Part shown: positions 40 to 8,551 of the stretch, one piece after another
Numbering within the stretch: position 1 is the stretch's first letter
Layout of the letters: every line of letters begins with the position of its first letter
NCBI GenBank assembly: GCA_021819725.1
Contig: JAKAQR010000081.1
Location: 1 to 8,551 of the forward strand
Length of the DNA stretch: 8,551 bases
Direction of reading: 5' to 3'
From: Actinomycetes bacterium
GTDB taxonomy: Bacteria; Actinomycetota; Acidimicrobiia; Acidimicrobiales; Acidimicrobiaceae
Program-made: the position numbers and the translations under genes
The notes under the pieces: generated by a model
The model's database searches: none
Told to the model about the DNA's origin: nothing
Seen by the model: the letters and a program-made list of their open reading frames with translations, nothing else

Positions 40-846
40 TTATGGTCGTTGTGACAGTCCCATCTGGGCGGCCAGTTCGCCGACGCCCCCTTCGTTATTC
101 GACGGCACCAACTTGGCGCCCGTTGAGAGGATCGCTGGGTGTGCGTTGGTGACCGCGAAAGGATGACCGACAATAGTCAGCATTGGCAGGTCGTTGAGAT
201 GATCGCCGACCGCGACACAATCTTCAAGCGGAACTCCAAGGATCTCCGCAGCTAGCCCGATCCCAAAACCCTTGTTGACCCCTCGCGGTACGATCTCAAC
301 CCAGTCAGTCGAGCCGCTGATGAGTTGTACATCGGCGAGAACCTGACGGATGATCGGGGCCAGTTCATCGGCATGAACGTCAGGATGCCGACAGATGAGA
401 CGGACCGCTGGTTCGACCTCGAAGAGCTGGTCAAGCTCGTACTCGATTGGCGCCAAGGGATGCACCTTGAGGAAGTCGCGCTGGGGCCAGAATTGAGTAA
501 CGGTAGAGGCAGCAAAATAGAAGCCAGTGTCGTGATGCAAGAGCTGTTCTATTGCGGAGCGCACGAAGCCGGAGGGCAGCTCTCTCACCCAGAGCAGAGC
601 ATCAAGGTCGAGGTGGTAACCAACGGCTCCGTTATGACAGACGGCGAGTGGCCCAAGTCCAGCAACTTTCGCGACGTTACGGACTCCGTTGATGCCGCGA
701 GCGGTCGCTGGTACGATAGCGACCCCACGAGCTCGGGCGTTGCGCAGTTGAGTTACCACCGATGGCGAGACGCTCTCTTCAGCATTGAGCAGAGTGCCAT
801 CGAGGTCAGTAAATAGCAACGATAGTCGATTGAGTGGTTGCATCAT
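40..846 (-). CDS. Cof-type HAD-superfamily phosphatase
   Basis: This gene encodes a 268-residue cytoplasmic hydrolase of the haloacid dehalogenase superfamily, Cof/YidA-like branch. Members are Mg2+-dependent phosphatases of small phosphorylated metabolites such as sugar phosphates. Motif I is DLDGT at residues 14-18, with D14 the expected nucleophile and D16 the acid/base. Motif II is the Thr in VPATARG (T48). Motif III is the Lys in VNKGFG (K192). Motif IV is GDHLND (214-219), with the metal-binding Asp pair. The segment between motifs II and III (about 80-185) is long enough for a C2-type cap, and the tail SNNEGGVGEL resembles the usual Cof C-terminus. The length is normal. The ATG overlaps the stop of the upstream oxygenase gene (ATGA), with a second ATG directly after it, so translation is probably coupled. 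The substrate cannot be read from the sequence. Confidence 0.92.
   Translation of the reverse strand: MMQPLNRLSLLFTDLDGTLLNAEESVSPSVVTQLRNARARGVAIVPATARGINGVRNVAKVAGLGPLAVCHNGAVGYHLDLDALLWVRELPSGFVRSAIEQLLHHDTGFYFAASTVTQFWPQRDFLKVHPLAPIEYELDQLFEVEPAVRLICRHPDVHADELAPIIRQVLADVQLISGSTDWVEIVPRGVNKGFGIGLAAEILGVPLEDCVAVGDHLNDLPMLTIVGHPFAVTNAHPAILSTGAKLVPSNNEGGVGELAAQMGLSQRP
843..846 (-). promoter_or_regulatory. ATGA stop/start overlap coupling oxygenase and phosphatase
   Basis: The TGA stop of the DUF2236 gene shares two bases with the ATG of the HAD gene. No clear Shine-Dalgarno sequence precedes that ATG, so re-initiation by terminating ribosomes is the likely mode of translation. A second ATG follows immediately in frame (843-841). 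Confidence 0.75.
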
Positions 847-1625
847 TGACTGCGACCGTATCTGACCAGTGCTTGTGCGCGGCGAGGGGACGGCACGGCG
901 GCGGCATTGGCGAGTTCGCCGCCGACTTTGAGGAGTATCCAGGTCGTCAGCTCATCCAAGGGTCGACTGGGCTTGTCGAGTGGAATCGTTACCCACGGCG
1001 GTAAGGAGGCGTAGATCCAGCGCATGACGAGTGGATAGACCTGCCCAACGAACCCCGCTGGACGCAGCCGATCAAGCAGTGTGAATGCTTCGACGGTGGA
1101 CTTGTTGATCACGAGCGAAGGCTGGCGCCAGATCCAATGATTCAGTGCTGCATAGGTAGCTGGCACCTCATTGAGGTCGCAGCCCATCAGCTTTGCTAGG
1201 CGCTGCATTTCTAGGACGTAAGTGTCCAGCAGTTGAACCTGAATACCGGGGTGAAAGTTGCGGTACGCATAACAAACCGACTCCACCATGGCATTGTGCA
1301 CCCAGGCCAAGAGGTAAGGGTCGTTTGCCGAAAATGGTGCGCCAGTCTCAGGAACTACACCTTGCACCGGTTCGTGGAGTAACCGGACGGCGCTGATGGC
1401 CGCTTCAACCTCGTCCAGTGCGGCGTAGGTGATTGTGTCAATGAAGTCGATCGTTTCAAGTAGGCGTTGATCGGGATGCTCGCCAAAACGCGAGAACTGC
1501 TGAACCCCAGCCAGCGCTCGTGGCTCGAGGGCTTGGATCGCCAGCGCACGCAGACCACCGATTAAGCCTGAGAAGTCGCCGTGAAGCTCCCACACGGCTG
1601 AGTCTGGCCCAAAGAGAGATTCCAT
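843..1625 (-). CDS. DUF2236 / MpaB-rubber-oxygenase-family protein
   Basis: The product is a 260-residue protein of the oxygenase MpaB family (DUF2236), related to the latex-clearing rubber oxygenase Lcp and fungal MpaB. Characterised relatives bind a b-type haem through a His. The family signature YLLAWVHNAMVES (numbered from the GTG at 1631, residues 106-118) contains the conserved His (H112), followed by YAYRNF and a predicted helix with YVLEMQRLAKLMG. The N-terminal half carries the usual pattern of a Q-x-x-x-P segment near 33-37, then SRFGEHPDQRLLETIDFIDTITYA at about 47-70, interrupted here only for description. No signal peptide is seen. I chose the ATG at 1625 because GGTAG lies 7 bases upstream; GTG codons at 1631 and 1628 are alternatives. 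It is the first gene of a two-gene unit with the HAD phosphatase. Actinobacterial genomes carry many such paralogues of unknown substrate, so the family is secure and the reaction is not. Confidence 0.85.
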   Translation of the reverse strand: MESLFGPDSAVWELHGDFSGLIGGLRALAIQALEPRALAGVQQFSRFGEHPDQRLLETIDFIDTITYAALDEVEAAISAVRLLHEPVQGVVPETGAPFSANDPYLLAWVHNAMVESVCYAYRNFHPGIQVQLLDTYVLEMQRLAKLMGCDLNEVPATYAALNHWIWRQPSLVINKSTVEAFTLLDRLRPAGFVGQVYPLVMRWIYASLPPWVTIPLDKPSRPLDELTTWILLKVGGELANAAAVPSPRRAQALVRYGRSQ

Positions 1626-1672
1626 CACCACACTACCAAATTAGCTCCGCTGCCAATAGCCTGGATCGTGTG

Positions 1673-2068
1673 GTGCGTTCGGATGTGCCCAAACGGCTGA
1701 TATTCGTAGGTTCGCTCTTCGCAGCGAGCATCTTGCTGTCAGCCTGTGGGGCGAGCGCCTCGTCGGACGCGACACGGGCCTGTGTTCTGGTCCACCGTTC
1801 GATCCGGCTCTATGAGGCCGCTAAGTCCGTCACGAAGACCCAGGCGCACGCGGATCTCGCTCGGGCAGAACGGCTGTTGGCTGAGGCGGTGTCGCCAGCG
1901 AATCTAGCCGCCTCTACCAATACCTACTGGCAGGCACTTGCGGGGACGCTTGCGGAAGCCCAGCAGCTTCCAGAGTCTCGTCTCGTCGTTTCGCTCAAGG
2001 CTCAGTGTTCAGCCGCCTCGGCGAATGAGGGTGAGTATGTCGTCCCGTATAAGTCCGAGGGTCAGTGA
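1673..2068 (+). CDS. Small secreted lipoprotein of unknown function
   Basis: I do not recognise a family. The reading frame gives about 131 residues with a lipoprotein signal peptide: a short basic N-region (RSDVPKR), a hydrophobic stretch LIFVGSLFAASILL, and the lipobox LSAC with the lipidated Cys at residue 25. After a Ser/Ala-rich linker the mature part is mostly helical and Ala-rich. It has one Cys near each end (ATRAC and KAQC), which could form a disulfide outside the membrane. A helix near the middle has an alternating charged pattern (HADLARAERLLAEA). The start is uncertain: GTG codons occur at 1670, 1673 and 1685, and none has a convincing ribosome-binding site. The frame also stays open back to 1520, but that part is antisense to the oxygenase gene and unlikely to be coding. 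The gene diverges from the oxygenase gene with only about 47 bp between the starts. Confidence 0.7.
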   Translation: MRSDVPKRLIFVGSLFAASILLSACGASASSDATRACVLVHRSIRLYEAAKSVTKTQAHADLARAERLLAEAVSPANLAASTNTYWQALAGTLAEAQQLPESRLVVSLKAQCSAASANEGEYVVPYKSEGQ

Positions 2069-2099
2069 GCTGTGTCGGCCTGGTTCCTCCTGAGGTAGC

Positions 2100-2144
2100 C
2101 TAGGCGGTTCCGGCCTAGCGTCAGTGAGATATTCGCACTGATGC
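2100..2144 (+). terminator. Back-to-back hairpins after the lipoprotein gene
   Basis: Two stem-loops lie 30 bp past the lipoprotein stop. The first pairs CTAGGC (2100-2105) with GCCTAG (2113-2118). The second pairs GCGTCAGTG (2118-2126) with CACTGATGC (2136-2144), with one G-U pair and a 9-base loop. They share base 2118. Neither is followed by a T-run, so a terminator role is inferred only from position. The 9-mer GTCAGTGAG of the second hairpin also spans the lipoprotein stop codon (2061-2069), forming a direct repeat. Confidence 0.4.
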
Positions 2145-2175
2145 GGTGTCGCCACCCGGCGCCAACACGGTCGCA

Positions 2176-2188
2176 GGACATGATGTCC
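2176..2188. promoter_or_regulatory. 13-bp palindrome GGACATGATGTCC
   Basis: This is a perfect odd-centred dyad (GGACAT-G-ATGTCC), the size and shape of a binding site for a dimeric helix-turn-helix regulator. It lies about 100 bp upstream of the permease promoter candidate. No regulator gene is in the window, so function is inference. Confidence 0.35.
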
Positions 2189-2221
2189 CAGTGACACAAA
2201 CGCCCATCTCTGGGGCCATTG

Positions 2222-2265
2222 TTTTGCTAGCTACTAGCGAGCGGGCGATGCGTTTAGTAGCAAAA
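2222..2265. repeat. Long inverted repeat upstream of the permease promoter
   Basis: The left arm TTTTGCTAGCTACTA (2222-2236) and the right arm TAGTAGCAAAA (2255-2265) pair over 11 bp, with an unpaired GCTA in the left arm and an 18-base spacer. The arms begin with TTTT and end with AAAA, so this is not a classical terminator on the plus strand. Its end lies 20 bp before the -35 candidate at 2286, which fits an operator or activator site for the permease gene. Confidence 0.4.
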
Positions 2266-2285
2266 TTGTAACGTGACCGGTGAAC

Positions 2286-2314
2286 TAGACATGTTTATGC
2301 GGTTATGTTATGGT
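2286..2314 (+). promoter_or_regulatory. Candidate promoter of the permease gene
   Basis: A -35 element TAGACA (2286-2291; 5 of 6 to TTGACA) is followed after 17 bp by a -10 element TATGGT (2309-2314; fits TAnnnT). Transcription would start near 2321, giving a leader of about 53 bases. TATGTT (2304-2309) is an overlapping alternative -10. Confidence 0.5.
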
Positions 2315-2362
2315 GATCATTAACAGCGGGCCTTAGGTGGCAGGCTGCTTGGTTACACCAAA

Positions 2363-2370
2363 AAGGGGGA
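2363..2370 (+). promoter_or_regulatory. Ribosome-binding site AAGGGGGA setting the GTG start
   Basis: A strong purine run ends 3 bases before the GTG at 2374. This supports the GTG over the in-frame ATG at 2416, whose GGGAG abuts the codon too closely. Confidence 0.65.
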
Positions 2371-2373
2371 AAT

Positions 2374-4020
2374 GTGCAAACTGGTCAACAAAGGACAGGA
2401 CGGCTCCGGCGGGAGATGTCCTATCTTGATCTCAGCTTTGCTGGGCTCGGTGCTATTATCGGGTCTGGATGGTTATTTGCGGTACTTTATGCCGCGCAGA
2501 CCGCAGGTCCTGCGGCCGTCATCTCTTGGGTTCTAGGCGGCGTGGCGTGCCTATTTATCGCGCTTGTCTACGCGGAGCTATCTGGTTTTCTTCCGGAGGC
2601 CGGTGGCGCTACTCGTTACCCACAGTACTCGCACGGACCTCTGGTCGGCTTTATCGTCAGCTGGGCGGCGTTCATTGCCTATGCTTCGGTGCCTGCAATC
2701 GAGGCCGAAGCGGTTGTCCAGTATGCATCTCACTACATCAAGGGCTTTGGGACGACGGTGAACGGGAGTTTTAACGCAAAACAGCCCGTCGCGTTCATAG
2801 TTGAGGCGGCCCTCCTGGTGGTCTTCTTTCTGCTCAACGTCTACGGTGTCAAGCTCTATGCGAAGGTCAACAGTTTCGTTACGTTCTTGAAGTTCCTGAC
2901 TCCGACGCTGACGATTTTGGTGGTCCTCTTCGTTGCGAAGAACTGGTCGAACTACTCCGCCCCAGCGACCCATGGGTTTGCCCCTTACGGGACCGCCGGT
3001 GTCTTGGTGGCGGTGTCCACGGCAGGAATTGTATTTTCTTTCTTGGGCTTTCGCCAGGCCGTGGAGATGGCCGCCGAGGCGAAGAACCCCCAGCGTGACG
3101 CGCCCCGGGCAATTTTGACGGCGCTCATTGCCGGCATGATAGTGTACGTGCTCCTCCAGGTTGTGTTCATTGCGGCGATTCCCAAGTCGGAACTCACGCA
3201 TGGCTGGGCAGCCTTGAGCTTGAGCTCGCCGTTTGCACAGGTTGCATCTGCCCTAGGACTCGGTTGGTTGGCAACCATCCTCTATGCCGATGCGGTCCTT
3301 TCGCCGTCGGGCACCGGGTTGGTGTATTTCGCATCGACCCCGCGCATTATCCTGGGGAGCGCTCGCAACGGGTACCTCGGGCGCTCATGGCGTAAGATTT
3401 CCGACAAGACCGGCATTCCAATCTATCCAATGGTGGCGACGATTATTGCGTCGTTGATTTTCCTGCTTCCGTTCCCGACGTGGCAGTCCTTAGTCGGCGT
3501 TATCTCCGCGGCAACGGTGTTCACCTACATCATGGGTCCGGTCTCCCTGGCGGTATTCCGACGTCACCATAGTGATGCACATCGGCCGTATCGCCTCGGT
3601 GGAGCGAGTGTGATCTCTCCGATCGCCTATGTCATGGGTGCGTTGATCATCTATTTCAGCGGATGGGAGACGGTTTGGAAACTGACGGTTGGGTACGCTA
3701 TCGGGATCATCATCTACCTGATTGTCTCGGCTGCGCGTGGTGATCTCGCCAAGATCAATGCAAAGGCGTGGAGGCAAGGTGTCTGGTTGGTGGTCTTTAT
3801 CGGGGTATCGTTGCTCGAGACGTATTTCGGCTCCGCGCGCTTTGGCGGGCAGTATAACAAGCTCCATGGTCTCATCCACTATCCATGGGACCTCGTGGTT
3901 GTGATCGTGGTGGCCCTGGCATTCTATTACTGGGGCGTGGCTTCAGGGAGCGCAAGCGACGATACCGACCAGGCCATCGAGCGTGCCAGTCAGTTGAATC
4001 AGCCCAATACGACCGATTAA
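2374..4020 (+). CDS. APC-superfamily amino acid permease
   Basis: The product is a 548-residue integral membrane transporter of the amino acid-polyamine-organocation superfamily. It probably imports an amino acid or related amine by cation symport or exchange. The TM1 signature GLGAIIGSGWLF (24-35) is the unwound substrate-binding glycine motif of the family. The cytoplasmic loop motif EAKNPQRDAPRAI (235-247), between the sixth and seventh helices, is another hallmark. Hydrophobic segments occur near 21-42, 46-68, 88-112, 140-160, 166-188, 207-228, 248-270, 290-310, 351-369, 374-396, 413-429, 437-453, 467-484 and 505-524. That is about 14 spans rather than the basic 12, in line with its length. 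The C-terminus is short, acidic and cytoplasmic. The GTG start is set by AAGGGGGA just upstream. The gene has its own promoter candidate and ends at a strong hairpin, so it is probably monocistronic. The substrate is unknown. Confidence 0.9.
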   Translation: MQTGQQRTGRLRREMSYLDLSFAGLGAIIGSGWLFAVLYAAQTAGPAAVISWVLGGVACLFIALVYAELSGFLPEAGGATRYPQYSHGPLVGFIVSWAAFIAYASVPAIEAEAVVQYASHYIKGFGTTVNGSFNAKQPVAFIVEAALLVVFFLLNVYGVKLYAKVNSFVTFLKFLTPTLTILVVLFVAKNWSNYSAPATHGFAPYGTAGVLVAVSTAGIVFSFLGFRQAVEMAAEAKNPQRDAPRAILTALIAGMIVYVLLQVVFIAAIPKSELTHGWAALSLSSPFAQVASALGLGWLATILYADAVLSPSGTGLVYFASTPRIILGSARNGYLGRSWRKISDKTGIPIYPMVATIIASLIFLLPFPTWQSLVGVISAATVFTYIMGPVSLAVFRRHHSDAHRPYRLGGASVISPIAYVMGALIIYFSGWETVWKLTVGYAIGIIIYLIVSAARGDLAKINAKAWRQGVWLVVFIGVSLLETYFGSARFGGQYNKLHGLIHYPWDLVVVIVVALAFYYWGVASGSASDDTDQAIERASQLNQPNTTD

Positions 4021-4053
4021 AAGCTCGGCCTTGGCTGTTCAAATGGCGGGCTT

Positions 4054-4086
4054 GTGGGGTTTGGCTTCAAGGAAGCCAGACCCCAC
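4054..4086 (+). terminator. Strong hairpin terminator of the permease gene
   Basis: A 15-bp stem (4054-4068 with 4072-4086), complete except for one G-U pair, closes a 3-base loop AAG 34 bases after the permease stop. The following bases are GTTCGTGTG, with no U-tract. Many actinobacterial terminators lack one, so termination is likely though not certain. Confidence 0.7.
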
Positions 4087-4167
4087 GTTCGTGTGCTCTA
4101 CCGCACGCTTACACTCCATGGGTGATAGGGGTCTTGCTCACAGCTGAGTCCGGGCATGGCGAGCGCA

Positions 4168-4173
4168 TAGAAT
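4168..4173 (+). promoter_or_regulatory. Possible -10 element upstream of prfC
   Basis: TAGAAT matches the TAnnnT consensus and lies 73 bp before the prfC start, downstream of the permease terminator. No good -35 hexamer sits 16-18 bp upstream (TGAGTC at 4145 is weak), so this is tentative. Confidence 0.28.
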
Positions 4174-4190
4174 GGGAGGCGTTGGCCGCA

Positions 4191-4206
4191 GGTGCCTGGT
4201 GGCACC
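4191..4206 (+). promoter_or_regulatory. Perfect stem-loop in the prfC leader
   Basis: GGTGCC (4191-4196) pairs with GGCACC (4201-4206) around the loop TGGT, 39 bp upstream of the prfC start. It would lie within the leader RNA if transcription starts near the -10 candidate at 4168. No known riboswitch is recognised. Confidence 0.35.
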
Positions 4207-4245
4207 GTTGGGATGGCACGTAGTTGAAGTGGATTTGGCGCAGGT

Positions 4246-5853
4246 ATGTCGATGGATGAGTCGGAAAGATTGGAGATACTGACCGAGGCATCTAGACGAC
4301 GAACGTTTGCGATCATCAGTCATCCGGATGCCGGTAAGACGACGCTCACAGAGAAATTTCTGCTCTATGCTGGCGCGATCGCCGAAGCTGGCGCCGTCAA
4401 GGCCCGCACTGGACGTCGAGATACGCGTTCTGATTGGATGGCGATGGAACAGGAACGTGGGATTTCCGTGACATCGACCGCGCTGCAGTTTGAGTATCGT
4501 GGTGCTTGGATCAATCTTCTTGACACACCCGGACACCGGGACTTTTCCGAGGATACGTACCGCGTTTTGACCGCGGTCGATGCCGTCGTGATGGTTCTCG
4601 ATACCGCAAAGGGTATCGAAACGCAAACCCTCAAGCTCTTTGAGGTCTGCCGATCGCTAGGATTGCCGATGCTGACATACCTCAACAAGTTCGATCGTCC
4701 AGGCAAAGCACCACTGGAACTCCTTGATGAAATCGAAGACAAGATCGGTGTACGACCCACTCCGATGACCTGGCCAGTAGGTATTCCTGGCGAGTTTCGT
4801 GGAGTCATCGATCGAGTGACCGGCGTGTTCACTCGCTTCGAGCGGAGTGTGCGTGGCAGGACGATGGCCACCGAAGTGCCCCTCGACGCGTCCGTTGCGG
4901 CGGCTGAGGAGGGTCCCGCTTGGGAGAACGCTGTGGATGAGTGTGCGCTTTTGGAGGCGGTTGGCGCGACCCACGATCAGGCGAGTTTTCTGAGCGGTAA
5001 GACAAGTCCTTTGTTCGTTGGCTCTGCAATGAATAACTTTGGCGTACGCGCGTTGCTTGATGCTGTGGTTGATCTGGTTCCTTCGCCGAGTCCGCGGCGG
5101 TCGATCGATGGTGAACTCCGTCCTCTTGATGCACCGCTAGCCGGGTTCGTCTTTAAGATCCAAGCCAATATGGACCCATCGCATCGAGATCATGTTGCAT
5201 TTGTTCGCATCTGTTCAGGCAGGTTCGTCCGCGGGGTTACACTTACGCACGCGGTTACCGGCAGGACGTTTTCAACGAAATACGCCAGTTCACTCTTCGG
5301 GGCTGATCGCTCTACGATTGAGGTCGCCTACCCGGGTGACGTCGTGGGTCTGGTCAATGCCGGAGAGTTGCGCATCGGTGACGCGCTTTACGCGAGGAAC
5401 CCTGTGGTTTTCCCGTCGTTCCCACAGTTTGCGCCCGAAATCTTCCGACGTGTCCGTGTCAAAGATCCTGGCCGTGCAAAGCAGTTCCGGAGGGGATTGG
5501 AGCAGCTGGAGCGCGAAGGCGTGTTGCAGGTGCTCTACGAGTTAGATGGTGATCCACTCCCGGTCTTGGCCGCGGTCGGTGAGATGCAGTTCGAGGTCTT
5601 TCATTATCGGATGGAGCATGAGTTCGGCGCGGTCGTTGAGTTCTTGCCCACACCGTACCGGGTCGCACGCGTAATAAGTTCTGACGGAGCTGCCCTGTTG
5701 GGTAGGATTCCCGGTGTACGTGTGCTCCGTCGCGGTGATGATACGCTGCTCGTTCTTTTTGAGAGCCAGGTTCGTTTGCAGACCGTCGAACGGGACCATC
5801 CCGAAGTTGACTTCGGGATGCTGTTGGGTTCAGGCTTTCCGGCGTTTACGTAG
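4246..5853 (+). CDS. prfC: Peptide chain release factor 3 (RF3)
   Basis: This gene encodes a 535-residue translational GTPase, close to the 529 residues of the Escherichia coli protein. RF3 uses GTP to remove RF1 or RF2 from the ribosome after peptide release. The G1 loop is SHPDAGKTT (25-33), with SHPDAGKT typical of RF3 where EF-G and EF-Tu have GHVDxGKT. The switch I region is QERGISVTSTALQF (69-82), as in RF3. G3 is DTPGHRDF (93-100) with the catalytic His at 97. G4 is NKFD (147-150) and G5 is GSA (259-261). A beta-barrel domain II follows at about 295-390, then a C-terminal domain III with VGEMQFEVFHYRMEHEFGA, a close match in position to the VGxLQF segment of the family. The ATG at 4246 is preceded by only a weak CAGG site, and ATG at 4252 is an in-frame alternative. 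RF3 is patchily distributed in bacteria. No frameshift is seen. Confidence 0.96.
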   Translation: MSMDESERLEILTEASRRRTFAIISHPDAGKTTLTEKFLLYAGAIAEAGAVKARTGRRDTRSDWMAMEQERGISVTSTALQFEYRGAWINLLDTPGHRDFSEDTYRVLTAVDAVVMVLDTAKGIETQTLKLFEVCRSLGLPMLTYLNKFDRPGKAPLELLDEIEDKIGVRPTPMTWPVGIPGEFRGVIDRVTGVFTRFERSVRGRTMATEVPLDASVAAAEEGPAWENAVDECALLEAVGATHDQASFLSGKTSPLFVGSAMNNFGVRALLDAVVDLVPSPSPRRSIDGELRPLDAPLAGFVFKIQANMDPSHRDHVAFVRICSGRFVRGVTLTHAVTGRTFSTKYASSLFGADRSTIEVAYPGDVVGLVNAGELRIGDALYARNPVVFPSFPQFAPEIFRRVRVKDPGRAKQFRRGLEQLEREGVLQVLYELDGDPLPVLAAVGEMQFEVFHYRMEHEFGAVVEFLPTPYRVARVISSDGAALLGRIPGVRVLRRGDDTLLVLFESQVRLQTVERDHPEVDFGMLLGSGFPAFT

Positions 5854-5915
5854 ACAAGTAGTGTGCTGTTTTGTGCGAGCGAGTGATGATTGAGTTTCGG
5901 GGGTCTGCGTTGCGT

Positions 5916-5933
5916 GATGCGAACTGCCGCATC
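5916..5933 (+). promoter_or_regulatory. Stem-loop just before the reductase start
   Basis: GATGCG (5916-5921) pairs perfectly with CGCATC (5928-5933) around a 6-base loop, ending 11 bases before the reductase ATG. It could influence initiation or act as a weak end for prfC transcripts. There is no T-run. The 91-bp prfC-to-reductase gap otherwise shows no clear promoter. Confidence 0.3.
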
Positions 5934-5944
5934 GAGCCTGGCGA

Positions 5945-6739
5945 ATGAGCACGCTCGGTAGTCTGGCCGGTCGAGTTGCTTTGGTGACGGGCGCTGGATC
6001 AGAGACGGGAATCGGGTACTCGACCGCGAGGGTTCTGGGTGAGCTTGGTGCCCGTGTAGTAATCACTTCGACGACGGAGCGCATCTATGAGCGCGTTGAC
6101 GCCTTGGGAAAGCTTGGCATCGTGGCGGCTGGTTACGTCGCAGACCTTACGGATCCGTTCGCGGTCGAGCAACTACGCGACGTGAGCTTGTCGGCTTTTG
6201 GGAGGGTGGATATTCTCATCAACAATGCGGGAATGACCTCATTGCACCAAGGTTCGGATGTGATCGGTGTGCTCGAGTCACTCACCGTACAGGCCTGGCA
6301 TACAGGACTCGAGCGTAATTTGAGTACGGCGTTCATGGTGACGCGAGCCTTCGTCGGTCCAATGAAGGAGCGAGGTTGGGGGCGTGTTGTTATGATCGCC
6401 TCCACTACTGGCGCGGTCAATTCGATGCCTGGCCACGCAATCTATGCAACCGCGAAGGCGGCGATGATCGGACTGACACGTTCGCTCGCACTCGAGGTAG
6501 CGTCGAGAGGTGTGACGGTCAATGCCGTTGGACCGGGTTGGATCGCCACCGGGTCTGCGAGTGCGGAGGAGATCGCCTTTGGCAACGCCAGCCCACTCGG
6601 ACGTTCCGGCTCTCCCGAGGAGGTAGCGGCGGTCGCTGGGGCGCTCTGTTTGCCAGGGATGTCGTATGTGACGGGCCAACTGATTGTTGTTGACGGTGGC
6701 AATTCGATCGCGGAGGCGCGCGCCGTTGGGGACCGCTAG
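5945..6739 (+). CDS. Short-chain dehydrogenase/reductase, FabG-like
   Basis: The product is a 264-residue classical SDR oxidoreductase with a single Rossmann domain that uses NAD(P)H. The cofactor loop is TGAGSETGIG (15-24), two residues longer than the standard TGxxxGIG. NNAG is at 93-96, the structural Asn in ERNLSTAF at 125, the catalytic Ser in IAST at 153, and the catalytic YATAK at 167-171. The PG motif is at 197-198 in AVGPGWIATGSA. The C-terminal VTGQLIVVDGG (242-252) is typical of FabG-like reductases. No acidic residue follows the second strand (VVITSTTERI), which favours NADPH over NADH by family rule, so this is inference. Best guess is a 3-oxoacyl or hydroxyacyl-thioester reductase or a related secondary-alcohol dehydrogenase; the substrate is not known. 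The gene follows prfC in the same direction after 91 bp and ends with a TAG stop. Confidence 0.92.
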   Translation: MSTLGSLAGRVALVTGAGSETGIGYSTARVLGELGARVVITSTTERIYERVDALGKLGIVAAGYVADLTDPFAVEQLRDVSLSAFGRVDILINNAGMTSLHQGSDVIGVLESLTVQAWHTGLERNLSTAFMVTRAFVGPMKERGWGRVVMIASTTGAVNSMPGHAIYATAKAAMIGLTRSLALEVASRGVTVNAVGPGWIATGSASAEEIAFGNASPLGRSGSPEEVAAVAGALCLPGMSYVTGQLIVVDGGNSIAEARAVGDR

Positions 6740-6887
6740 TAGTTGCCTTATGCAGACGTTTTGCGATGAGCCGGTTAAACGCTATCCCGCTGCGTGGCCG
6801 TCAGCCTCCTTGTGGGCTTGTTGGTCTGCCTACTGTCATACCTCGGGCGTGGATAAACATCAAGGTATCCACAGCCGATGGCGGCGT

Positions 6888-6917
6888 TTGTCGCAGAGTG
6901 TCTGCTCACGATAGGCT
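6888..6917 (+). promoter_or_regulatory. Candidate promoter of the thioesterase gene
   Basis: TTGTCG (6888-6893) and TAGGCT (6912-6917) are spaced by 18 bp, acceptable as -35 and -10 elements. They sit 42 bp before the start codon and downstream of the inverted repeat at 6849-6872, which could be an operator. Confidence 0.3.
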
Positions 6918-6946
6918 GAGTTCTGGGTCAGCTGTTAAAGAAGAGC

Positions 6947-6952
6947 GAAAGG
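6947..6952 (+). promoter_or_regulatory. Ribosome-binding site GAAAGG favouring the GTG start
   Basis: GAAAGG ends 7 bases before GTG 6960 and 10 bases before the adjacent ATG 6963. The spacing fits the GTG slightly better, and the two proteins differ by one residue. Confidence 0.5.
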
Positions 6953-6959
6953 TTGGTGG

Positions 6960-7403
6960 GTGATGGGGGAGCAGAACTGCTTTGCGTGTGGCGGCGACAA
7001 TCCAGTCGGGCTGCACCTTGAGTTCGCGGGCGCTGACGGCCATGTGCGCGCTACCTACCGAGCCGAGGATCGTTTCGTCGGGTGGGACGACATCCTCCAT
7101 GGTGGAATTACCGCCACGATCTTGGATGAGGCTGCAAGTTACGTACCGTATTCGATGGGTTTCGTGACGGTAACCGCTCGTCTTGAGGTGCGTTACTCGC
7201 TGCCGATTCGAGTGAATGAGGTACTCGCAGTCGAGGGTAACCTAGTCGATCGTCGGCGTAATGTCGTACGAGCAGAGTCGACGATTCGTGATGGTGCCGG
7301 TGTCGTGCGAGCCAGTGCTACAGCCAGGCTTGTCATCCTCGGGGAGCGAGGAGACGGAGCGTCCGGGGCGGCAGGGTTTCTGAGCCAGGGTCATCGAGAA
7401 TGA
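6960..7403 (+). CDS. PaaI-family hotdog thioesterase
   Basis: The product is a 147-residue cytoplasmic protein of the hotdog-fold acyl-CoA thioesterase superfamily, PaaI/YbgC-like. Such enzymes form dimers or tetramers and hydrolyse acyl-CoA thioesters. The N-terminal NCFACGGDNPVGLHLEF (6-22) is typical of a subgroup that begins with C-F-x-C-G-x-x-N-P-x-G-L. The central helix begins with the motif HGGITATILDEA (47-58), where HGG and the Asp/Glu at 56-57 mark the active-site region. Strands VTARLEVRYSLPIRV and NVVRAESTIRDGAGVVRASATARLVIL complete the fold. The last 20 residues (from about 128) are Gly-rich and lie beyond the domain. It has its own promoter candidate and is probably transcribed alone. 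It is the last intact gene before a stretch of mobile-element debris. Confidence 0.88.
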   Translation: MMGEQNCFACGGDNPVGLHLEFAGADGHVRATYRAEDRFVGWDDILHGGITATILDEAASYVPYSMGFVTVTARLEVRYSLPIRVNEVLAVEGNLVDRRRNVVRAESTIRDGAGVVRASATARLVILGERGDGASGAAGFLSQGHRE

Positions 7404-7451: not shown

Positions 7452-7965
7452 GTGTGTGGCGCGTCCTGAAAACTGGATCATCCCAGCGGGTGCAAGTCCC
7501 GTCCGGGTAATCACCGGAGAGTCCCTGGTACGTCGTCGAGGGGAGCTGGCTGCGTGGGGTGTCAAAAGCCTCCTTGGAGGAAGCAAGCGTGCGAGCCGTA
7601 GGGCCAACAGGCAGGGGTCTAGCAGCCTCGTCCCATTTACATTGGGCAAGCCAGCCGCTCATGTCAAGGCGCAGGCCACGTCCATTCCGGTTGTGACACA
7701 GGTCGGGTCGTTCCGGGGTATAGGGAGCTGCGCGTGCGCAAGGGATGGTTCTGGGTCGGAGAGACCCGATTTGCCGACCTCGTCAACGAAGACCGCTCGT
7801 ATAAGCCAACGGTGAAGTCGACCGGAGGCAAGCGGTTGCCCGACGGGGTCATGGTGCCGCTGAATCGCTGCGAGAAACGTAGCGGGAGGAAAGGGCCCGG
7901 ACTTCGGTCACGCCGCTGTGAAGGTAAGCGCGAAGGCATGACCGGTCCAACTATCTCGACGGGTG
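7452..7965 (+). mobile_element. 5' fragment of a group II intron
   Basis: From GTGTG at 7452 or 7454 (fits the GUGYG 5' end of group II introns) the sequence has domain I-like features. CGGG-TGCAAGT-CCCG forms a hairpin at 7487-7501, a hallmark GGGTGCAAGTCCC stretch of bacterial introns. CCGG/CCGG pair at 7503-7517, CCTCC-TT-GGAGG at 7569-7580, GCGTGCGAGCCGTAGGG follows at 7588, and GGGTC/GACCC pair at 7753-7767. Near 7840-7940 the plus-strand frame reads DGVMVPLNRCEKRSG and later KREGMTGPT. This resembles the leader that precedes the reverse transcriptase/maturase in introns I know from Actinobacteria. No reverse transcriptase motif, domain V or domain VI follows, so only the 5' quarter or so seems to remain. 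The exact 3' boundary of the fragment is not visible. Recognition is from memory of such introns, not from a search. Confidence 0.6.
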
Positions 7966-8060
7966 TACGCCCGTTGCCACCGTGCCGGCACTCGACCCAA
8001 GATGAACTCCGCCTCGTTTGCTGGATACCCTTCGCCCGGCTTCCCATACCGACGGGATAG
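7734..8060 (+). pseudogene. Remnant leader of a group II intron maturase ORF
   Basis: An open frame of 108 codons starts with GTG inside the intron fragment and ends at TAG. The first 75 or so residues (KGWFWVGETRF, then DGVMVPLNRCEK, then KGPGLRSRRCEGKREG) look like the translated segment that lies upstream of the maturase domain in related introns. After MTGPTIST the resemblance stops, and the remaining residues are unlike any reverse transcriptase. No YADD motif or maturase X domain is present. It is probably a truncated, non-functional remnant; it may also simply be structured intron RNA that happens to be open. Confidence 0.35.
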
Positions 8061-8305
8061 CTGGGGCTATCGTAGTGTCGGGCCGTCTTGAACGTAACGC
8101 GATGAGCCATCGCTCTGACCAGCCTTGCCGCATACCGCTCCAAAATACATACACACTCATATACACCTCTTTTGTTTTCGCTCTCCAGCCGCCTTTGCGT
8201 GTTCTGCTCTATCCACAGGAACAGAACTAGGGCGAGTCGATGGTTGTTTACCTCCCACGTCCAACTTTCGTTGTCGTGGTTTGCTTGGAGCCCTGCCGTG
8301 AGCGG
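7966..8305. other. Non-coding debris with short hairpins
   Basis: No gene is convincing here. Three stem-loops are visible: GATAGC (8056-8061) with GCTATC (8066-8071), GCGATG (8099-8104) with CATCGC (8108-8113), and GTTCTG (8201-8206) with CAGAAC (8222-8227). The 8140-8190 stretch is AT-richer than its surroundings. The left part may be intron residue and the right part the 3' end of a broken minus-strand frame. Confidence 0.4.
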
Positions 8306-8314
8306 TAGCTCCGT
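8306..8314. repeat. Left 9-bp target-site duplication
   Basis: TAGCTCCGT, identical to the copy at 8425-8433, directly abuts the left end of the 110-bp inverted-repeat element. Confidence 0.65.
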
Positions 8315-8424
8315 AAGGGATATCCATCTGAGCCGACCCAGCGCCGGCGGGACCCAAGCTGTAGTGGCCCGACTCTGCCGATGACGCAAGATGCTGTGGT
8401 CAGTCGGGTCAGATGGATATCCCA
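8315..8424. mobile_element. MITE-like 110-bp element
   Basis: The arms at 8317-8337 and 8403-8423 are inverted repeats matching at 20 of 21 positions. The outer 15 (GGGATATCCATCTGA) are perfect. The mismatch is at arm position 16. Perfect 9-bp direct repeats lie immediately outside, leaving AA at the left end and A at the right end between the repeats and the arms. There is no room for a transposase, so the element would be mobilised in trans. A 9-bp duplication is found in several DDE insertion-sequence families, such as IS1 and IS4, and the family here is not identified. Inside, CCCGACT (8368-8374) can compete to pair with AGTCGGG (8402-8408), so the transcript could fold in two ways. Confidence 0.65.
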
Positions 8425-8433
8425 TAGCTCCGT
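8425..8433. repeat. Right 9-bp target-site duplication
   Basis: TAGCTCCGT, identical to the copy at 8306-8314, directly abuts the right end of the 110-bp element. Confidence 0.65.
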
Positions 8434-8551
8434 TTTCAACACACGTATCTCGGACACCGTTGTCAGTGGTCCCCAAAGGGACGATACGTGCTCCAACTCG
8501 GCTTTGCATTCGGCGTAGGAACCTCTCATCAAGGATCTTCTTCACCTCCGT

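Follow-up and report, generated by a model that had tools for sequence, protein, structure and literature searches.

A 111-bp IS1595-type MITE with a predicted NrdR operator pair in the Acidimicrobiales

Insertion of a MITE into a tnpB tail

The window analyzed here, i.e., the whole stretch of 8,551 bp, belongs to a genome (G000; 2.42 Mb, 161 contigs, 95.5% complete) of the Acidimicrobiaceae. Positions 40-7403 contain ordinary genes for a HAD hydrolase, a protein with an MpaB/Lcp-type oxygenase domain, an amino-acid permease, release factor RF3, a short-chain dehydrogenase and a 4HBT thioesterase. They are followed by a region (7800-7945) that resembles loci in G031 (81%, 7823-7945) and G039 (73%, 7800-7915), gave no Pfam match in the two frames tested and is perhaps another mobile-element end. 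Closer to the end of the window, a MITE is inserted in the 3' end of a tnpB gene (Table 1).

Table 1. Features of the MITE insertion and their positions in the window
Feature	Position	Strand	Details
Target, tnpB 3' end of a multi-copy IS607-like element; MITE inside C-terminal tail	8135-8551	-	Uninterrupted versions in G000 and same-genus G001 align to 8135-8314 and 8425-8551
Target-site duplication AGCTCCGT, copy 1	8307-8314	.	8/8 versus 8426-8433; single in five aligned uninterrupted targets
MITE, 111 bp	8315-8425	-	Reads ATGGGATATCC...GGATATCCCTT on the minus strand; 111/111 copy at G000:C37; 23-bp ends common to the IS at G000:C107
Terminal inverted repeat, low-coordinate arm	8317-8337	+	Identical to both IS ends
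NrdR-like box 2, CCACTACAGCTTGGGT	8352-8367	-	12.9 bits; pair 27.4 bits; 32 bp start to start, 16-bp spacer
NrdR-like box 1, CCACAGCATCTTGCGT	8384-8399	-	14.5 bits; matrix from boxes at the reductase starts of seven relatives
Terminal inverted repeat, high-coordinate arm	8403-8423	-	Inverted-repeat pair
Target-site duplication AGCTCCGT, copy 2	8426-8433	.	8/8 versus 8307-8314

The element is short and transposase-free and ends in terminal inverted repeats. For 21-base inverted matches within 250 bp, the window has a maximum of 20/21, and 15 dinucleotide shuffles reached 15-17/21; in an extended form, the inverted-repeat pair covers 8314-8337 and 8403-8426 with a 92% match. A first-pass annotation of this DNA had described the 20/21 arms together with the 9-mer TAGCTCCGT at both flanks, and these are indeed present, the 9-mer at 8306-8314 and again at 8425-8433. 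It had also given the element a size of 110 bp and a 9-bp duplication, which we correct to 111 bp and 8 bp. With a 9-bp duplication, two identical copies of the MITE would require unlike ends; thus, the duplication is 8 bp, and 8315-8425 is the single boundary that fits both copies. In this common frame, the insertion reads ACGGAGCT ATGGG...CCCTT ACGGAGCT, and the ninth matching base of the direct repeat in the window, an extra T, is a coincidence. In five of seven insertions, the first base of the element equals the target base directly after the duplication, stretching the apparent direct repeat; this equality may hint at a target preference.

Several lines of evidence support that the element reached its site by transposition, as had been proposed. 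First, uninterrupted versions of the target exist. Positions 7800-8551 match 20 of the 42 genomes of the family, chiefly via 8135-8314 and 8425-8551. Seven target-like loci were fetched, of which two (C50 and C141) did not match the anchor and five could be aligned, four from G000 and one from G001. Each of the five has one TAGCTCCGT and lacks the MITE, i.e., is an empty site. The copy in G001 is a 569-aa frame whose Cas12f1-like TNB domain passes the Pfam cut-off and whose NCBIfam match to TnpB stays below cut-off; it adjoins a resolvase fragment (Pfam above cut-off; NCBIfam IS607 transposase below cut-off). Because the insertion adds 119 bp, the reading frame of the tnpB tail is shifted in the window. 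Second, an identical copy of the MITE lies elsewhere in G000 within a different duplication. Third, an insertion sequence in G000 has the same ends.

Copies, an IS1595-family partner and relatives in the order

A search of G000 with 110 bp of the element gave four matches, i.e., the window copy, a copy on C37 (100%) and two facing 23-bp matches to the ends of an insertion sequence on C107. The C37 copy (L006:1069-1179) has 111 bp, is identical to the window copy at 111/111 positions and is flanked by the 8-bp duplication AGCGAGGT, so that two copies in one genome each have a duplication of their own (AGCTCCGT versus AGCGAGGT). Further copies with different flanks had been anticipated, and the identity of these two fits the suggestion that the event was recent. 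The C37 copy lies ∼60 bp past a tnpB frame and 73 bp ahead of a glutathione-peroxidase-like frame (1253-1753) with NCBIfam matches below cut-off.

The insertion sequence on C107 has 1109 bp, shares 23 bp at each end with the MITE and lies within the 8-bp duplication TTACCTTT; a same-genus insertion sequence (G004:C28) has 1048 bp and the 8-bp duplication TTGCACAT, and a shortened 280-bp relative in G000 (C45; L068:617-896) has the 8-bp duplication ACCTGGCT. The C107 transposase matches, in two frames, the N-terminal Zn-ribbon PF12760 (E 1.1e-11) and the DDE_Tnp_IS1595 domain PF12762 (E 1.7e-31), and the second frame also matches NCBIfam NF033547 with 141 bits against a cut-off of 75. When 11 sequences are aligned, two aspartates characteristic of the DDE domain show no variation. 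Among 8000 candidates scored, 7978 matched; in the best 120 of these 7978 matches, intact-length relatives exist, and the top one among the matches listed has 346 aa, contains both domains and is 96% identical over a 227-residue piece, while one named IS1595 family transposase, from Ferrimicrobium sp., is at 83% among the matches listed. The full-length element with the same ends and a transposase that the first-pass annotation had called for is present as far as its length and ends are concerned; its transposase, however, is frameshifted, the reading frame being broken between the Zn-ribbon and DDE parts (L005:606-1647). C107 is the sole full-length IS1595-type copy seen in the G000 assembly, in which no intact partner transposase was seen and the only other PF12762 match is partial, on C132.

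The IS1595 family (Siguier et al. 2009, as described in the available part of PMC8101967) makes 8-bp target duplications, as do the insertion sequences with the ends of the MITE. Because the partner is an IS1595-family element, the earlier suggestion of an unrecognized, possibly undescribed, family is unsupported; judged by its ends and domains, the mobilizer of the MITE likely belongs to the known family IS1595. The MITE differs from the family in being gene-less, and its interior is not an IS remnant. Local alignments of this interior with the insertion sequence scored 15 and 17, values reached by 199/200 and 152/200 shuffles, and we reject its origin as an IS deletion product. MITEPye1 of Paracoccus yeei, as presented in the available text of PMC11578231, is similarly short and gene-less, with paired IS-like ends and duplications; however, it is tied to IS1182, and that text mentions no repressor operator.

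By BLAST, any match to the MITE was obtained in two of the seven genomes of the genus and three of the 42 genomes of the family (G000 included in both), and a full copy was found only in G000, the remaining 41 family members having none. Of 397 genomes sampled from the order, seven had a BLAST match, three a match to a pattern spanning an end and the motif of the interior, and eight a match to a covariance model built, with the interior included, from three elements (the window copy and two of G215). The model found 20 places, and at 14 of them a duplication of 7/8 or 8/8 coincides exactly with the ends that the model predicts, compared with 5/3000 random placements; four of these 14 either served to build the model or are the identical C37 copy. 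A 1-bp shift yields an 8/8 duplication at G073:C56, which is among the 14, and at G388:C92b, which is not. No target duplication was found at G388:C92a or at the four copies in G125. Together, these places support that the 8-bp rule holds beyond the first copies. The BLAST match in G336 shows no ends, and G215 has MITE copies yet no PF12762 match. G072 has a three-copy 102-bp MITE (C72, C130 and C131; L093, L097 and L101) with similar ends and perfect 8-bp duplications. The G125 element, at four places (L095, L099, L102 and L104) and 126 bp in each, has perfect ends, TAGGAGCGTGGGACAGAACC, unrelated to those of the window MITE; it lacks an 8-bp duplication and has TA at both borders in 4/4 copies, conceivably a TA duplication as in IS630-type elements.

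Outside these genomes, the MITE had no match in the plasmid collection, and an 18-base pattern of its end had no exact match in viral contigs. In genome contigs, this pattern occurred in four records compared with 3.7 expected by chance by our own estimate: an Acidimicrobiales MAG record has one end, and the Poribacteria, WOR-3 and Clostridiales records have no convincing second end, with one 3-mismatch inverted match in Poribacteria.

We also considered that the 111 bp represent a structured RNA or a conserved chromosomal repeat rather than a transposon. The predicted RNA fold is strong (z −5.5 and −4.8), and such folding is expected from the long inverted arms. The empty sites and target duplications, the restriction, by BLAST, of full copies to G000 within the family and the lack of any Rfam match at curated thresholds leave this reading a negligible probability, and we reject it. 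Thus, the observations named in the first-pass annotation as speaking against a mobile element were not made; instead, other copies and empty sites exist.

A pair of NrdR-like boxes inside the element

The motif CACAGCATCTTG of the MITE interior is also present in elements from other families within the order. It resembles NrdR boxes, and we put this likeness to the test. The gene for the ribonucleotide reductase large domain (PF02867) was located in seven of the eight genomes asked, i.e., in all seven relatives, and a stretch of 3.8-4.6 kb that leads up to and enters the reductase domain was scored in each; in all seven, the best-scoring pair of this stretch is close to the gene start. The pair precedes the longest reductase frame in G113 and G072 and overlaps its first codons in the other five, in which, by the likeness of the N-termini, we would place the true start further down. 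The domain was not found in the G000 assembly, perhaps because of an assembly gap, and the operator of the host itself could, therefore, not be read. The scoring matrix was made from the 14 boxes of the seven relatives, themselves picked with an NrdR-box consensus.

With this matrix, the pair in the window scores within the range of the seven promoters left out in turn (20.6-35.8 bits). None of 2000 column-permuted matrices matched the score of the window element (best 26.2), none of 300 matched the mean of 13 elements, and 20,000 random 111-bp windows had a median of −5.5 and a 99% point of 6.3. To score relatives, five of the 20 places were dropped as (near-)identical (C37, two of G072 and two of G125), and the partial G215:C183 and G073:C64 were left uncounted. 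A pair is present in 12 of the 15 elements scored, including six G215 copies (21.9-33.9), G073:C56 (18.9), G113:C66 (22.0), G388:C92b (21.1) and the G125 element (40.6), and absent in G388:C92a (0.4), G397 (−2.8) and the G072 element (−11.0), the last offering a natural comparison without boxes; this share is biased upward because the related elements, G125 included, were found with a model containing the interior. Because three of the 15 elements lack it, the pair is not needed for IS1595-type mobility. The two IS copies also lack it, with scores of 2.6 and 0.7 (the median of random 1109-bp windows being 2.4), as does the 280-bp derivative (−0.3).

The spacer between the boxes measures 16 or 17 bp in the 12 box-bearing elements. 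Across the fetched loci, which overlap in part and total 377,481 bases, all distinct pairs of at least 18.9 bits at a spacing of 31-33 bp lie at a reductase promoter or in a MITE-like element. At a cut of 15 bits, 28 distinct pairs occur at spacings of 31-33 and 7-11 per three control spacings; the background fraction of 0.0005 obtained earlier, when the elements were scored with the matrix, is too high, the reductase loci L113-L119 being included. In a sample of 221,275 bases of G000 with the window left out, no pair reached 18.9 bits at spacings of 18 to 47; the best scored 18.7 (L139:5627-5674) and spans the beginning of a frame that resembles a membrane protein.

Box-like sequences could also arise if an internal hairpin of a plain IS1595 MITE happened to match; the consensus fold of the model does have an inner hairpin over box 1, and the likeness to NrdR boxes was noticed after the fact. 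Given the pair score, the fixed spacing and the control scans, we regard such a coincidence as distinctly improbable. In its details, the pair resembles NrdR operators of reductase genes, which, in the available parts of PMC9110341 and PMC12051234, consist of two 16-bp palindromic boxes with a C and a G conserved in each and a 16-17-bp spacer. The C and G, nine positions apart, are conserved in both window boxes and in 19/20 boxes of 10 elements, and the spacer of 16 bp falls within the 14-17 bp that NrdR accepts (PMC12051234). Deviations are an AG in place of the usual central AT in box 2 of the window copy and weak second boxes in G388:C92b and G113:C66 (3.3 bits each). Here, however, the pair is within a transposon in a tnpB tail and not upstream of ribonucleotide-reductase genes. 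The host has an nrdR gene (TIGR00244, above cut-off), adjoining lexA; a pattern search around the reductase loci of the relatives found no nrdR. We conclude that the boxes are, as a strong sequence prediction, an NrdR operator pair.

The boxes are also conserved. For the 10 elements whose ends are of the IS1595 type, pairwise identity averages 0.75 and 0.70 for the two arms and 0.77 and 0.60 for boxes 1 and 2, compared with 0.32 for the linker and 0.33 for the part past box 2; with one copy from each of five genomes, the values are 0.76 and 0.68, 0.74 and 0.54, and 0.23 and 0.38, respectively. Six of the 10 elements are from one genome, and the queries that retrieved all 10 included the interior, which favors box-bearing copies. 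The pair is centered 5-6 bp off the element center in the 111-113-bp copies and lies at the center of the G125 element. Conceivably, the core was taken up from a reductase promoter and has been retained through shared ancestry, or merely soaks up NrdR. Consistent with this, the copies within G215 are related, and every copy found comes from the single order searched with the model. However, the boxes have been preserved although the intervening 16 bp are close to random, and the element with unrelated ends has a pair too, which makes a by-stander role quite unlikely. Rather, the presence of one operator in elements of two end types argues for its being of importance to them.

Possible roles of NrdR binding

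Altogether, we consider it probable that the element is an IS1595-type MITE with a functional NrdR-binding site. What NrdR would do there is less certain. Tentatively, and at less than even probability, we suggest that NrdR binding pairs the ends of the element. The ends of the MITE would be recognized in trans by an IS1595-family transposase making 8-bp duplications. According to the available text of PMC9110341, Streptomyces NrdR binds with dATP plus ATP (or ADP) and not with ATP or dATP alone, and it kinks each box by ∼90 degrees, leaving a sharp 180-degree turn; NrdR accepts spacers of 14-17 and 24-27 bp, with Streptomyces NrdR preferring 15-17 (PMC12051234, available part). An NrdR tetramer loaded with dATP and ATP could, by occupying both boxes, fold the DNA back near the middle of the 111-bp MITE, bringing the ends side by side in an element whose short length keeps it from bending readily on its own. 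The mobility of the MITE would thereby follow the dATP level. More broadly, and as a possibility that we hold no more firmly, transposons with two or more types of ends, all within a single bacterial order, may have adopted the NrdR operator as an architectural site at which the dATP-loaded repressor pairs the ends, so that deoxynucleotide supply would license transposition.

The same anatomy would suit the opposite effect, in which core-bound NrdR blocks synapsis or access of the transposase and thereby confines movement of the element to low dATP levels. This timing function agrees with NrdR being a repressor (PMC12051234 and PMC9110341, in their available parts); we nevertheless hold it to be unlikely. 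We are similarly doubtful that the MITE is a mobile operator that carries NrdR control to neighboring genes and is kept where helpful. The conserved boxes and the position of the C37 copy ahead of the glutathione-peroxidase-like frame agree with such a function, but the window copy is inside the tnpB tail and not ahead of a gene, and a promoter and terminator scan of 8200-8551 gave no match.

Host-protein sites in short mobile repeats have a parallel. Correia elements are MITEs with sites for IHF. They share with the element described here a site for a host DNA-bending protein; the site in the window MITE differs in being a two-box NrdR operator. A literature search by titles found no paper on an NrdR operator in a MITE or transposon, and none was found on MITEs of Acidimicrobi-named taxa; an IS1595 MITE is not reported in the portions of the literature examined and may have been published elsewhere.

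Should these elements be bound by NrdR, a DNA-precursor sensor that is widespread in bacteria would act on mobile DNA as well. Such binding would connect transposition to nucleotide supply in a simple and testable way, and it would provide IS1595-type elements with a host factor and NrdR operators with a route to spread. It would also serve as a warning that an NrdR box pair in a genome is not always a reductase promoter.
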